Source: Coxiellaceae bacterium (GTDB taxonomy: Bacteria; Pseudomonadota; Gammaproteobacteria; Comchoanobacterales; Comchoanobacteraceae). Taken from it: a DNA stretch of 64,000 nt. The translations under genes were made by a program, and so were the position numbers. The first letter of the stretch is position 1; the number at the start of each line of letters is the position of its first letter. Below are positions 2,421 to 62,341 of this stretch, one piece after another. The stretch covers positions 62,001 through 126,000 of the forward strand of contig CACKTD010000001.1 in NCBI GenBank assembly GCA_902603055.1, read 5' to 3'. A model generated the notes under the pieces. It was not told the DNA's origin and did not search any database. It saw only the letters and a program-made list of their open reading frames with translations.

Positions 2421-3512
2421 CTATTTGGTAATGGGGGTATGGTGGCATACTTGTTTAATGGTGGGGTGTAGCAGGAGTAATAGAATTTGTTGATGCTCAT
2501 ATTGGTGATTAAGGCAAAAAACTTTGTTTAACAGGGGTATTTGGTGTATTCCGATTAAGCAGCGTTTCTTTTGATCTACACGGTCTTCTTTGAGGCCTCC
2601 TAGCAGGACCATTTCTTGGTTTCTTATATATACTTCCGTAGATATTTCATTATTGATATTAATATGTGGGGAGTGGTTGTAAAGGTGCTTGAGACGCAAT
2701 TTTATAACTGCACTTTGGGGTCCGAAGTTCTCGGACGATAGATCAATTTTAAAGGTTCTTGGAGATAATGCTCCATTAGATGACGCGTGTTCCTCTGTAA
2801 GCAAAGATGCTTGGCCGCCTTCAATCACACTTAGCTGAGGCTTTGAGAGATATTGTGCTTGACCAATGGATTCTAGGTTTTTAATTTTAGTCATGATGTT
2901 TTGATATAGGCTGCTTTTTTTTTCAAAGTAAAGTGGTGATGAGGGATCAATGCCAAGCTCTTTGACCTGGTCTGCATTTATGGACACAATATCCATGTTG
3001 ATAATGATCTGTTTGGGTGCGCAATCGGCTTTTTCTAAAAACAACAATAAATCTTCGATATCTTCGGAATTACTTTTAATCGCAATTAAATTATCCTGGT
3101 CCCAAATAACTTTGTATCGATAGTCAAAATGTTGCTTTTGCAATAATGCGGTTAACTTGGTAGATGGTTGAAATTGCGGTTGAAAAAAATGATGAAACTT
3201 TAAGGTTTGGTTTTTTTCCTTAAAAAAAAGATGTTTAGTTGGGTCATATTGGACGTCATGTTCTGTTTCAAGCCATGTGACCCACTCCTCCCATGAGGTA
3301 TTCTCAAGTTGGGCAGATGTTATGTTGTTGATGTTTTGGATATGACAGGGCCTTTTAATAGCCCAACAAACTCGATTAATCATTGTAGATAATGAGGTAT
3401 GTGATGCTTTAAGGTTGATTTTGTTTTCGCTATACGTTACGTCAACTCCACTAAATGGATCTTCATATGCATTGGATAATGAAAATAAACAAAGGAGGAT
3501 TAGTGGCAGCAT
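2421..3512 (-). CDS. Short secretin, PilQ/HofQ-like
   Basis: This is an outer-membrane secretin of the type IV pilus / DNA-uptake class. The ATG at 3512 was chosen because it opens a clean signal peptide (MLPLILLCLFSLSNAYE); an upstream in-frame ATG at 3608 would add a hydrophilic leader. The N-terminal half looks like STN/N0 and N1 domains. QIIINMDIVSINADQVKELG matches the start of the secretin core, YLSKPQLSVIEGGQASL the middle, and EMVLLGGLKEDR plus IGIHQIPLLNKVFCL the C-terminal secretin signature. At about 363 residues it is far shorter than PilQ (about 700) and lacks AMIN domains. It overlaps the preceding gene by 13 bases. Confidence 0.82.
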   Translation of the reverse strand: MLPLILLCLFSLSNAYEDPFSGVDVTYSENKINLKASHTSLSTMINRVCWAIKRPCHIQNINNITSAQLENTSWEEWVTWLETEHDVQYDPTKHLFFKEKNQTLKFHHFFQPQFQPSTKLTALLQKQHFDYRYKVIWDQDNLIAIKSNSEDIEDLLLFLEKADCAPKQIIINMDIVSINADQVKELGIDPSSPLYFEKKSSLYQNIMTKIKNLESIGQAQYLSKPQLSVIEGGQASLLTEEHASSNGALSPRTFKIDLSSENFGPQSAVIKLRLKHLYNHSPHININNEISTEVYIRNQEMVLLGGLKEDRVDQKKRCLIGIHQIPLLNKVFCLNHQYEHQQILLLLLHPTIKQVCHHTPITK

Positions 3513-3805
3513 AAAGTGGCTTGATACTTTAGTTTTGTGAGATATTCCTCTAGTTTGAAGGCGCAAAGGTGCTCTGATTGCTGTAAAAAAGCAACCCATT
3601 GTTTCCATGTTGTGATGCCCTCGATCGTGATTTTGTCGTTGTAGATGGTGTGCTTTTGAATGTTAAGAGATGCATGTAACGCTAAACTCATTGGTGGGCA
3701 CGTTTGTTTTAATGGCAGTGTTTTTGATGAGGTGGCGTTATAAATCCACCCCAAGGAAAGCACCATTACTATACTAATCAGTGTCTTGGGTGAAGAAAAC
3801 AACAT
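3500..3805 (-). CDS. Small membrane-anchored protein, possible reduced PilO/PilP
   Basis: This is a 101-residue protein with one N-terminal membrane anchor (about residues 7-24) and a short periplasmic part ending in the KITIEGITTWKQWVAFLQQ stretch. That segment has the pattern of the ferredoxin-like fold in PilN/PilO-type pilus assembly proteins (beta strand, then helix). No domain can be assigned firmly. The assignment leans on its place between a PilN-like fragment and the secretin, overlapping both (31 and 13 bases). It may be a shrunken PilO or PilP equivalent. Confidence 0.55.
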   Translation of the reverse strand: MLFSSPKTLISIVMVLSLGWIYNATSSKTLPLKQTCPPMSLALHASLNIQKHTIYNDKITIEGITTWKQWVAFLQQSEHLCAFKLEEYLTKLKYQATLCCH

Positions 3806-4052
3806 GGTTTTTATCCTGATTAATAACTAAAGGGTGGCAACTATTTATTTTAGGCATCAGTGCGTAAACAGCATCTATGGTGGTGCTTTCTCCGAGTAGT
3901 TCATAACAACCATCGTGGTAATGGACGAAGTTTATATGAAGGCCTTCTGTAAAGGACATATCTAAAGATTGTAATGTTGTGTCGATGGGTAAATGGTGAG
4001 GCTGTTGGGATATGAGAGTAAATGCCGCCAATAAAATAAGTACAATAAACAT
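3774..4052 (-). CDS. Small PilN-like protein (membrane anchor plus C-terminal domain)
   Basis: The 92-residue product has a membrane segment at residues 1-15 followed by a compact domain. The run from LQSLDMSFTEGLHINFVHYH to LLGESTTIDAVYALMPKI resembles the C-terminal domain of PilN: a sentence-like order of 'gene product L..l..p.gv.i....' then '.l.G.a.....v..l...l'. PilN is normally about 190 residues and links cytoplasmic PilM to PilO at the inner membrane; here the N-terminal PilM-binding peptide and coiled coil are absent. It is the first gene of a three-gene overlapping operon with the secretin. No pilM is found upstream. Confidence 0.55.
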   Translation of the reverse strand: MFIVLILLAAFTLISQQPHHLPIDTTLQSLDMSFTEGLHINFVHYHDGCYELLGESTTIDAVYALMPKINSCHPLVINQDKNHVVFFTQDTD

Positions 4053-4155: not shown

Positions 4156-4186
4156 GGTTAATTGGGTTCCGTTTTCTCAATTAACC
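4156..4186. repeat. 8-bp inverted repeat spanning the stop of the upstream gene
   Basis: GGTTAATT (4156-4163) and AATTAACC (4179-4186) are perfect reverse complements around a 15-base loop. The stem extends by two pairs if one bulged G is allowed. It overlaps the stop codon of the minus-strand gene. It may help terminate or protect that transcript, but there is no clean T run. Confidence 0.3.
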
Positions 4187-4869
4187 AGACCAGTACAGAA
4201 CTTAACACAGCTGTATTCATCATCCACCATACTTAAAGTGATATTTTCCATTAAGCTTTTTAGTGCTTTTAATGTGTCATCACAAAAACCCAGAATTGCT
4301 AAAGGTATTTGGGACAATGGAGATAAATTCAGATACAAAAACGAATCTTTAGTTGCTGTTGCAACGACTTCTATGATTGCAAGTACTAAGTCTAGCGCTT
4401 TGTGAGGAATGAAAAAGGCAGCATATAATAATGGTTGGATTAGCGAAGAACGTTGATTATTATAATAAGGATTACTCTTCAGCATGTTAAATGCGTTTTG
4501 GTAAGAGTGTCCGTTGAGACACAGAGCAAATACTTCCAAATCATTTTTCGTATAGTGCCCATAAATAGCTTCTTCTAAATTAGAAAAACCAATGTTTATG
4601 TTTATAATTAAGTTCTGGATATTGTATAGTTCTTGATCGCAGAAGTCTAAGACTCTACATGGAATCGAGTAAAAGATACCTAAACCGAACATGTTGGCCA
4701 CATGGTACAAACCTTTATTTATCTTATCTAGTACATATCGAAAGACTTCTAATGCCTCAATTGGTATTATAGAAAATGCTGCAAGAGGCATGGCTGCATA
4801 TCCGTTTCCAGCGTCTAGTCCATTGTAAGATATATTCTCTTCAGATATTAGATTTTGCATTTGTATCAC
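4177..4869 (-). CDS. Unrecognised protein with two 119-residue-spaced repeats
   Basis: I do not recognise a family. The 230-residue protein has no signal peptide but holds two hydrophobic modules that align without gaps at an offset of 119 residues. FxIxPxxAL around P36 matches P155, an IP pair at 69-70 matches 188-189, LxFCD at 74-78 matches 193-197, and the N-I pair at 90-91 matches 209-210. Each unit is a long hydrophobic helix pair. A polar linker of about 45 residues joins them. It stands alone between the mini-secretin operon and xseA. It could be a membrane-associated host-interaction protein, but nothing proves this. Confidence 0.75.
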   Translation of the reverse strand: MIQMQNLISEENISYNGLDAGNGYAAMPLAAFSIIPIEALEVFRYVLDKINKGLYHVANMFGLGIFYSIPCRVLDFCDQELYNIQNLIININIGFSNLEEAIYGHYTKNDLEVFALCLNGHSYQNAFNMLKSNPYYNNQRSSLIQPLLYAAFFIPHKALDLVLAIIEVVATATKDSFLYLNLSPLSQIPLAILGFCDDTLKALKSLMENITLSMVDDEYSCVKFCTGLVN

Positions 4870-61472: not shown

Positions 61473-62341
61473 ATGTCCGTTTAATTCAAGAATACCTCGT
61501 ATTATGTAAATTTCGAGTGGTTGGATTAATGTTGATTTGTGCATTTGTGGGGATGCTTTTAGCAAGTAACGAGTTACAGCCTATGCTGATGTTCAATGCA
61601 TTGCTTGGCATTGGATTTATCTGTGCAGCAGGTGGTATTTGTAATCAGGTTTTTGAAGTTCATATTGATGCTTTAATGAGTCGCACTAAAAATAGGCCAT
61701 TGCTCAGTCAAAACATCAGTGTGAAAGATGCCACGCGTGTGGCGATTCTATGTGCATTTGTTGGGACTTCGATATTGTTATACTACGTAAATACAGTGAC
61801 CGCTTATTTAAGTTTAGCGGGTGTCATTGGTTATGCGCTTATCTACACATGTTTCCTTAAAGCTTCGACACCACAAAATATCGTGATTGGTGGCTTAAAC
61901 GGTGCACTACCTCCATTGCTGGGTTGGACAGCAATCACTGGACATTATTCAGCAGAAGCATTAGTTTTAGTTGCCATTATATATACTTGGACACCGCCAC
62001 ACTTTTGGGCATTAGCAATTCATCGTCGAGAGGATTATGCGAAGGCAGACGTACCCATGCTACCAGTTACGCACGGTGTGAAGTTCACCTGTCAGCAAAT
62101 TGTTTTATATACAATTTTGATGGTCATTGTAACCATGTTTCCAGTGTTGTTAATGATGTCAGGTTTAATTTATGCGCTTGTAGCAGCCTTACTGAATATT
62201 CTTTTTTTAAGTTCCGTATGGCAACTATACCATCGACCAACCAATCATAATGCATTATCTACATTTCATTTAAGTATTCATTATTTAATGTGGTTGTTTG
62301 TAGCGTTAATGGTTGATCATTTTTATCTGATTCCTATTTAA
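61466..62341 (+). CDS. ctaB: Protoheme IX farnesyltransferase (heme O synthase)
   Basis: Adds a farnesyl tail to heme b. The aspartate-rich region NQVFEVHIDALMSRTKNRPL is the diphosphate site, and TPPHFWALAIHRREDYAKAD is the second conserved loop. Nine membrane helices are visible. At 291 residues it has the typical length. It acts before ctaA, so these two give heme A for the terminal oxidase, whose subunits are outside this window. Confidence 0.95.
   Translation: MLDVRLIQEYLVLCKFRVVGLMLICAFVGMLLASNELQPMLMFNALLGIGFICAAGGICNQVFEVHIDALMSRTKNRPLLSQNISVKDATRVAILCAFVGTSILLYYVNTVTAYLSLAGVIGYALIYTCFLKASTPQNIVIGGLNGALPPLLGWTAITGHYSAEALVLVAIIYTWTPPHFWALAIHRREDYAKADVPMLPVTHGVKFTCQQIVLYTILMVIVTMFPVLLMMSGLIYALVAALLNILFLSSVWQLYHRPTNHNALSTFHLSIHYLMWLFVALMVDHFYLIPI

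Follow-up and report, generated by a model that had tools for sequence, protein, structure and literature searches.

A strongly reduced HofNOQ-type operon in a Comchoanobacteraceae bacterium as a candidate DNA-uptake complex

Introduction

How far can the machinery that aligns a type IV pilus be reduced in a bacterium with a tiny genome? This question is raised by a locus in a stretch of 64,000 nucleotides (positions 62,001 to 126,000 of contig CACKTD010000001.1, Coxiellaceae bacterium, family Comchoanobacteraceae, assembly GCA_902603055.1), referred to below as the window. Three overlapping genes on its minus strand, 4052-2421, encode proteins of 92 and 101 amino acids (aa) and a secretin of 363 aa according to the list of open reading frames (ORFs). 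The window is part of a draft assembly (G000) of 977 kb in 24 contigs, 74% complete by markers. The organism is a tiny-genome marine bacterium and probably a protist symbiont; Ca. Comchoanobacterales include choanoflagellate-associated bacteria, as stated in part of the text of PMC9418006. In the initial annotation the locus was described as a miniaturised PilN/PilO/PilQ-like operon, perhaps of a competence-only apparatus. The PilN/PilO/PilQ reading is largely right, and the operon represents a known complex in a new, strongly reduced form. According to the best explanation, which is considered probable, the trio forms a reduced HofNOQ-type DNA-uptake complex of the kind that serves alignment in type IVa pilus and competence systems, the motor of which has sometimes been lost.

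Results and discussion

The operon and its conservation

The first gene (3774..4052, minus strand) encodes the PilN/HofN-type protein of 92 aa, assigned from its ORF, hydropathy, AlphaFold2 (AF2) model, Foldseek matches and shuffle tests against HofN. The second gene (3500..3805, minus strand) encodes the PilO/GspM-type protein of 101 aa, assigned from its ORF, the order strand, strand, helix, strand, strand in the AF2 model and structural re-alignment with VIA-align. The third gene (2421..3512, minus strand) encodes the HofQ-like secretin of 363 aa, recognised by PF00263 and by hhalign to HofQ/PilQ. The first two genes overlap by 32 nt and the last two by 13 nt. Counted from its first ATG, the secretin ORF spans 2421-3608 and would give 395 aa; the start at the ATG at 3512 was preferred because the resulting 363 aa fit the relatives.

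The overlapping trio was thus found as first described, and it recurs in the same order in the sister genome G001, where proteins of 89, 105 and 357 aa are encoded between xseA and prs (both named by eye). The identity between both genomes amounts to 37% for the first protein, 30% for the second and 34% for the secretin. The numbers of differences at codon positions 1, 2 and 3 are 42, 31 and 52 in the first gene, 57, 43 and 62 in the second, and 203, 129 and 223 in the secretin gene. In all three genes position 3 differs most and position 2 least; therefore, the pattern is that of coding sequences. The match to the G001 secretin spans one TGA, which must lie before the start of the gene, since the ORF is open from L003 1576 onward. 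The three-gene operon is real, and the two small ORFs are real genes. The small proteins gave no match in Pfam or NCBIfam (E up to 10) or in PHROGs (E up to 0.1). No terminator-like site was detected between 2180 and 4960, and the number of promoter-like sites there was close to the shuffle level (16 compared with 10.7, standard deviation 3.4).

The comparison was extended to 14 genomes of one family. The reduced secretin type, counted apart from Tad-like and MSHA-like loci, is present in G000, G001, G003, G006, G007, G009 and G011. Two small ORFs stand beside it in six of these seven genomes; in G011 the secretin stands at the very start of the contig. The three genes lie in a row in G000, G001, G003, G006 and G007, and in G009 the small pair is divergent beside the secretin. 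This distribution bears on the possibility that the operon is a functionless relic of a type IV pilus that is being lost. The very small proteins, their extreme divergence, the missing partners, the reduction of the genome and the absence of the reduced secretin from 7 of the 14 genomes would all fit such decay. However, the ORFs are open in six genomes despite an identity of the secretins to the window copy that falls to 14-15% (G007 was outside that alignment), the substitutions between G000 and G001 are of coding type, and prs is a neighbour of the locus in G000, G001, G003 and G011, four of the seven genomes (genes named by eye; in G003 prs is on the other side and strand). A decaying remnant is regarded as unlikely.

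The secretin

The secretin exceeds the PF00263 cut-off (40.7 against 27.5 bits), and its best stretch, which includes the GGL motif, lies at 2457..2702 on the minus strand (residues 303-384 of the 395-aa reading). A profile built from three secretin copies aligned with HofQ/PilQ at an hhalign probability of 96.3% over columns 63-354, that is, from the N-terminal domain to the end. Before the secretin domain the protein has what we take, from inspection by eye and general knowledge, to be a signal peptide, a short N-terminal domain and an N1-like domain. As judged by eye from the alignment, the secretin domain is about 25 residues shorter than that of HofQ, at the domain start.

The idea of a miniaturised secretin holds in comparison with PilQ, which has 702 and 782 aa in two genomes of the same class. 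It does not hold against HofQ of E. coli, since with 412 aa this protein is only 49 residues longer. The secretin is thus only modestly smaller than HofQ, and the strong reduction concerns PilN (92 aa compared with 179 aa in the E. coli Hof system), PilO (101 compared with 146 aa) and the ATPase described below (271 compared with 461 aa). The proposed loss of the AMIN domains was borne out, as none matched the secretin at E up to 10. HofQ presumably lacks them too, so the AMIN domain is not a strict criterion. A second secretin was not found in the assembled part of G000, and therefore this part holds no second, full-length pilMNOPQ operon, a finding that would have spoken against the initial annotation. 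Its statement that PilM is missing from the operon also agrees with the loci: no pilM-like or pilP-like ORF was noticed by eye beside the operon in G000, G001, G003, G006, G007 and G009, PilM not having been searched for genome-wide.

Likeness to known secretin systems

The closest resemblance is to the competence-type cluster hofMNOPQ of E. coli, the counterpart of which in Haemophilus is comABCDE. Common to the Hof operon and the window are the gene order N-O-Q, the overlapping small genes, a secretin that is about as long and can be aligned over 290 columns, and a HofN-like first protein. Unlike in E. coli, there is no HofM or HofP in the window operon, and HofN and HofO are considerably longer than the window proteins. 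The type IVa PilMNOPQ systems of Neisseria, Pseudomonas, Thermus and Myxococcus share with the window the fold of the small proteins (PilO 2rjz and 5uvr, PilN 4bhq) and the secretin domain, but the window operon is devoid of AMIN domains, PilM and PilP. In Neisseria, PilMNOP is essential within an eight-gene minimal set, as reported in part of PMC6668835; without PilM and PilP the window operon would lie below this set. The same part of that source also states that several other filament systems do without PilMNOP.

The type II secretion system (T2SS) provides the closest solved folds, namely the periplasmic domains of GspL (5hl8, 6ghu, 5n7l, 2w7v) and GspM (8a9x, 1uv7). It differs in that no GspC or pseudopilins were noticed here, that the cytoplasmic GspL domain is missing, and that the first protein of the operon is HofN-like in sequence. 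In the competence pilus of monoderm bacteria, a small PilB-type ATPase without the N1 domain, ComGA, stands beside a PilC-type protein, ComGB, and there is no PilMNOP. In contrast, the window system keeps an outer-membrane secretin and its PilN/PilO-type partners.

Fold and identity of the small proteins

The 92-aa protein has a hydrophobic start at about residues 2-15 and one predicted ferredoxin-like domain at residues 38-88. Its hydropathy at residues 1-19 is 1.62, just above the threshold of 1.6, which supports, for this protein, the first description of both small proteins as anchored. The hydrophobic segment already starts at residue 2, so the cytoplasmic PilM-binding tail of PilN is absent, and there is no space for a coiled coil. 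The 101-aa protein has its hydrophobic start at about residues 9-22 and one predicted ferredoxin-like domain at residues 49-99. The coiled coils of PilN and PilO are missing, as had been claimed, there being no room for them in either protein.

AF2 predicts a beta-beta-alpha-beta-beta core for both proteins. In the 92-aa model the strands cover residues 38-46 and 49-56, the helix 59-68 and the last strands 75-80 and 83-88; the predicted local distance difference test score (pLDDT) of the core is 84-89, with a mean of 70.8 for the whole model and a predicted template modelling score (pTM) of 0.55. In the 101-aa model the strands lie at 49-54 and 58-65, the helix at 67-76 and the last strands at 80-88 and 91-99 (core pLDDT 83-89, mean 67.9, pTM 0.51). 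Most of both hydrophobic starts remained below a pLDDT of 50.

Among 490 PDB matches of the 92-aa model found by Foldseek at E up to 10, the first five were GspL periplasmic domains (E 0.09-0.31). After re-alignment its first five rows comprised four GspL entries and PilO, with Z 5.2-6.0 and a root-mean-square deviation (rmsd) of 3.0-3.9 over 63-73 residues. For the 101-aa model ACT-like domains led in Foldseek and GspL was sixth, while in VIA-align the first ten entries were all GspL, PilO or GspM (Z 7.2-8.5, rmsd 1.9-2.4, 64-70 residues), with unrelated chains from Z 6.7. For both proteins it should be kept in mind that, according to the alignment tool, Z below 8 can reflect a common fold arrangement. 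The structure prediction that had been proposed as a check of the ferredoxin-like fold thus led to domains of the GspL/PilN and PilO/GspM types.

In sequence, the 92-aa protein resembles residues 97-151 of E. coli HofN: none of 2000 shuffles was as good. HofN had been picked out from 42 comparisons (6 proteins with 7 references), in which this was the only pair with none of 200 shuffles as good, and it matched better than GspL or GspM did. For the first proteins of G001 and G007 the alignment falls inside this segment too, and 84 and 55 of 2000 shuffles, respectively, did equally well. Of the second proteins none stood out in the same round (152-1974 of 2000), and the 101-aa protein gave no sequence match to canonical PilO by hhalign or in shuffle tests. 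In hhalign, nothing usable came from matching profiles of the small proteins to PilN, PilO, GspL and GspM (best probability 7.9%). The first protein is accordingly best described as PilN/HofN-type by predicted fold and by sequence, with a putative membrane anchor, and the second as PilO-type by predicted fold and position only.

Motor and DNA channel in G000

Above the PF00437 cut-off G000 carries DotB and one more ATPase. The latter is a PilB-type protein of 271 aa (contig 4, L046 9540-10355), which matches PF00437 with 95.5 bits from residue 7 onward and therefore cannot accommodate an N1 domain; MshEN did not appear among the best 25 of the 39 families listed for it. Its best PDB matches in phmmer are PilB/GspE. 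The Walker A, Asp-box and His-box patterns are present, and GELRD was recognised by eye where the Walker B pattern had missed it. The CxxC pairs seen in HofB and GspE are absent. The ATPase gene is overlapped by 41 nt by a 343-aa membrane ORF with hydrophobic segments at residues 196-214 and 315-333, a putative PilC, which it resembles in position and size. Between this gene and putA, at L046:7784-8497 of the same contig 4, a rhodopsin-like protein of 237 aa (by eye) is encoded; rhodopsins are described as common in Comchoanobacterales in part of PMC9418006.

ComEC of G000 has 631 aa, with PF03772 Competence and Lactamase_B domains, and ComEC is present in 14 of the 14 family genomes. No third ATPase above the PF00437 cut-off, and hence no PilT, was found in G000, where three further matches all stayed below the cut-off. 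The genes named in advance for a genome search were recovered in part: a reduced pilB was found, together with an unconfirmed pilC, and neither pilT nor, above the cut-off, comEA.

A Dot/Icm origin of the operon was ruled out, since the other T2SSE ATPase of G000 is DotB and the secretin locus lies elsewhere. A DotB-type ATPase is present in 13 of the 14 genomes, the 12 outside G000 showing 58.7-80.5% identity; it was not found in G008 (53% complete). The Dot/Icm locus of G000 is situated on contig 1 (L078 7920-19001), where DotD-, DotC-, DotB- and DotA-like genes follow one another in this order, as named by eye.

Points against the reading and alternative functions

Several findings weigh against a HofNOQ-type DNA-uptake complex, and the first group concerns the trio itself. 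The AF2 alignments had two rows each, and only the G000 pair was folded. No Foldseek match of either small protein reaches E 0.001. For the 92-aa model the best Z is 6.0, unrelated chains begin at 4.6, and PilN itself has 4.0. No likeness to HofN stood out for the first proteins of G003, G006 and G009 (1864, 1373 and 293 of 2000 shuffles as good). Among the five lineages first compared, a score better than all 300 shuffles was reached by the small proteins only in the pairs G000-G001 and G003-G006, and those of G007 added no further likeness. Apart from these two pairs, no clear sequence similarity links the small proteins of different lineages, and they are therefore equated by position, size and the neighbouring secretin. 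The hydrophobic start of the 101-aa protein stays below the hydropathy threshold, which was passed by four of five first proteins and two of five second proteins tested. The claimed anchor is thus not confirmed for the second protein, whose hydrophobic segment could be either an anchor or a signal peptide.

The remaining points of this group would also suit a channel for protein or phage-like export, in which a secretin like that of the T2SS or of filamentous phages works with GspL/GspM-type partners and has nothing to do with DNA. After re-alignment the top structural rank is taken by GspL for both small proteins. The secretin profile finds GspD first in the PDB, the NCBIfam models for the window copy follow in the order MshL, GspD, SctC and PilQ, all below cut-off, and its PHROG match is protein IV of M13 (48.8 bits). 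The subtype of the secretin (PilQ/HofQ) is accordingly less sure than its identity as a secretin. Nevertheless, no pseudopilin or GspC-type gene was noticed by eye in the loci read, the first small protein prefers HofN in the shuffle tests, and the type IV pilus PilQ model, although below its cut-off, is the best one for the secretins of G003, G007 and G009. Export of this kind is considered quite unlikely.

The second group of findings concerns the partners of the HofNOQ-type complex. In the 74% complete G000 no match above the cut-off was obtained for ComEA (PF12836), no prepilin peptidase (PilD) was found with PF01478, and no pilin with PF07963 and a DNA pattern. Four weak PF12836 matches lie in frames of 324, 605, 716 and 1128 aa. 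The lone match to the GF[ST][LF]xE-type pilin pattern was rejected because it lies antisense in a 452-aa ORF, and the backward control of the pattern gave two matches in G000. The PilC identity of the 343-aa ORF was not confirmed by Pfam, by the search in 14 genomes, or by phmmer, BLAST and hhalign. Across the family, the reduced secretin occurs in half of the genomes that have ComEC. Any secretin at E up to 1 was detected in 9 of 14, and ComEC occurs in the absence of any secretin match in G002, G004, G005, G008 and G013 (90, 82, 84, 53 and 83% complete), which makes the link between ComEC and the secretin weaker. Moreover, part of PMC6145873 reports that removal of N1-type domains from PilF of Thermus disrupted hexamer assembly, a result that argues against a motor without them.

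The distribution of the motor leads to a further alternative, which is a variant of the preferred explanation and not exclusive of it. The secretin and its two partners might be kept as a gate through which DNA or other cargo crosses the outer membrane, working with ComEC and without a pilus, the ATPase of G000 being a late remnant or used only in some species. A PilB-type ATPase able to serve the reduced secretin was found in G000 and in G009 (298 aa). G003, G006, G007 and G011 carry the secretin and ComEC, and only DotB exceeds the PF00437 cut-off in them; PF00482, PF01478 and PF07963 gave no match above cut-off in these four genomes either. In G003, G006 and G007 the two small ORFs precede the secretin as well. 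G003 consists of one contig of 1,007,335 bp and is probably a closed chromosome; if so, the absence of a motor holds for the whole chromosome at the sensitivity of the profiles. The stretches flanking putA in G002, G004, G007 and G012 contain no PilB/PilC-like ORF by eye. PilB of G001 was not judged, as the putA flank, which is the site of PilB/PilC in G000, reads N.

On the other side, reduced PilB-type ATPases do exist in G000 and G009, and G009 possesses PilC (330 aa), a prepilin peptidase (135 aa) and a pilin, which could be used by its second, MSHA-like system too. G003, G006, G007 and G011 are 89, 88, 81 and 61% complete by markers, and PF00437 matches below the cut-off are present in G003, G007 and G011. 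Pilus genes of this family diverge fast, and Pfam does not recognise the PilC-like protein of G000; absence from profile searches thus weighs little except for the ATPase. A motorless gate is regarded as possible, if not favoured. With the same reservation, a stand-alone gate feeding DNA to ComEC can be proposed in which G009 with a reduced pilus set, G000 with the reduced ATPase only, and G003, G006 and G007 with no motor detected might represent stages by which a DNA-uptake machine lost its pilus. The claim of a competence-only apparatus gains from the presence of ComEC and loses from the five secretin-free genomes with ComEC and from the four of seven secretin genomes in which no motor exceeds the cut-off. 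In view of the latter even a pilus is not certain; the competence-only reading is plausible.

Proposed arrangement of the complex

In the HofNOQ-type complex, the secretin would form the outer-membrane channel. The two small proteins may pair through their ferredoxin-like domains beside the inner membrane and hold or position this channel. PilM and PilP are not encoded in the operon, and the cytoplasmic tail of PilN and the coiled coils of PilN and PilO have presumably been lost. The likely motor in G000 would consist of the 271-aa ATPase devoid of the N-terminal domain and the overlapping PilC-like membrane protein. As set out in part of PMC6145873, PilM attaches to a cytoplasmic segment of PilN, and contact with other pilus components or the inner-membrane complex has been proposed for the N1 domains of the ATPases. 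With PilM absent at the locus and neither contact part left, the losses appear to be coordinated: the presumed contact region of the motor with the inner-membrane complex and the PilM-binding part of PilN may have disappeared together. The most likely role would be the passage of DNA through the secretin and on to ComEC, the inner-membrane channel; DNA is suggested as the cargo by the presence of ComEC and the likeness to HofNOQ.

Neighbouring genes and other loci

Upstream of the operon lie a 230-aa ORF and xseA, downstream tRNA-Gln, prs and rplY/pth, the protein genes being named by eye. The 230-aa ORF (4177..4869, minus strand) is situated between the operon and xseA, has no family match and is not claimed as part of the system. 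Its two halves look alike, membrane ORFs of similar appearance are found next to putA in G002 (L123), and it is not found at the corresponding place in G001.

The reduced secretin of G009 lies just below the PF00263 cut-off (26.0 against 27.5 bits). The peptidase of this genome (L075 9732-10139) overlaps the PilC gene, and its A24 domain fills all 135 aa, leaving no room for the N-terminal methylase part. Larger secretin and ATPase loci were set aside as what we take, from gene order, to be Tad-like in G010 and MSHA-like in G012, and the secretin on contig 33 of G009 is MSHA-like by gene order and by the MshL model (191 of 250 bits). The MSHA-like gene sets, recognised by gene order, are found at L119 3631-8620 and L051 367-3218 in G009 and at L053 8132-13022 in G012, in relatives with otherwise reduced genomes; in L051 a run of look-alike secreted proteins follows them. 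The operon of G010 (L052 7020-14373), Tad-like by gene order, encodes a secretin of 443 aa and an ATPase of 510 aa.

Conclusions

Summarizing, the operon would show how little of the alignment machinery of a type IV pilus suffices, with a one-domain PilN and PilO and no PilM, PilP or AMIN domain at the locus. The absence of PilM would be tied to the loss of the parts that would meet it, namely the tail of PilN and the N-terminal domain of PilB. Current models couple the passage of DNA through the secretin with retraction of the pilus; if the motorless alternative is true, the two would be separable. According to PMC9418006, its initial scan for secretion systems left out type IV pili, and its main text does not contain the words 'competence', 'comEC' or 'secretin'. 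Because ComEC has been kept in all 14 genomes of the family, the presented results suggest that DNA uptake persists in these marine bacteria despite their reduction and host dependence.

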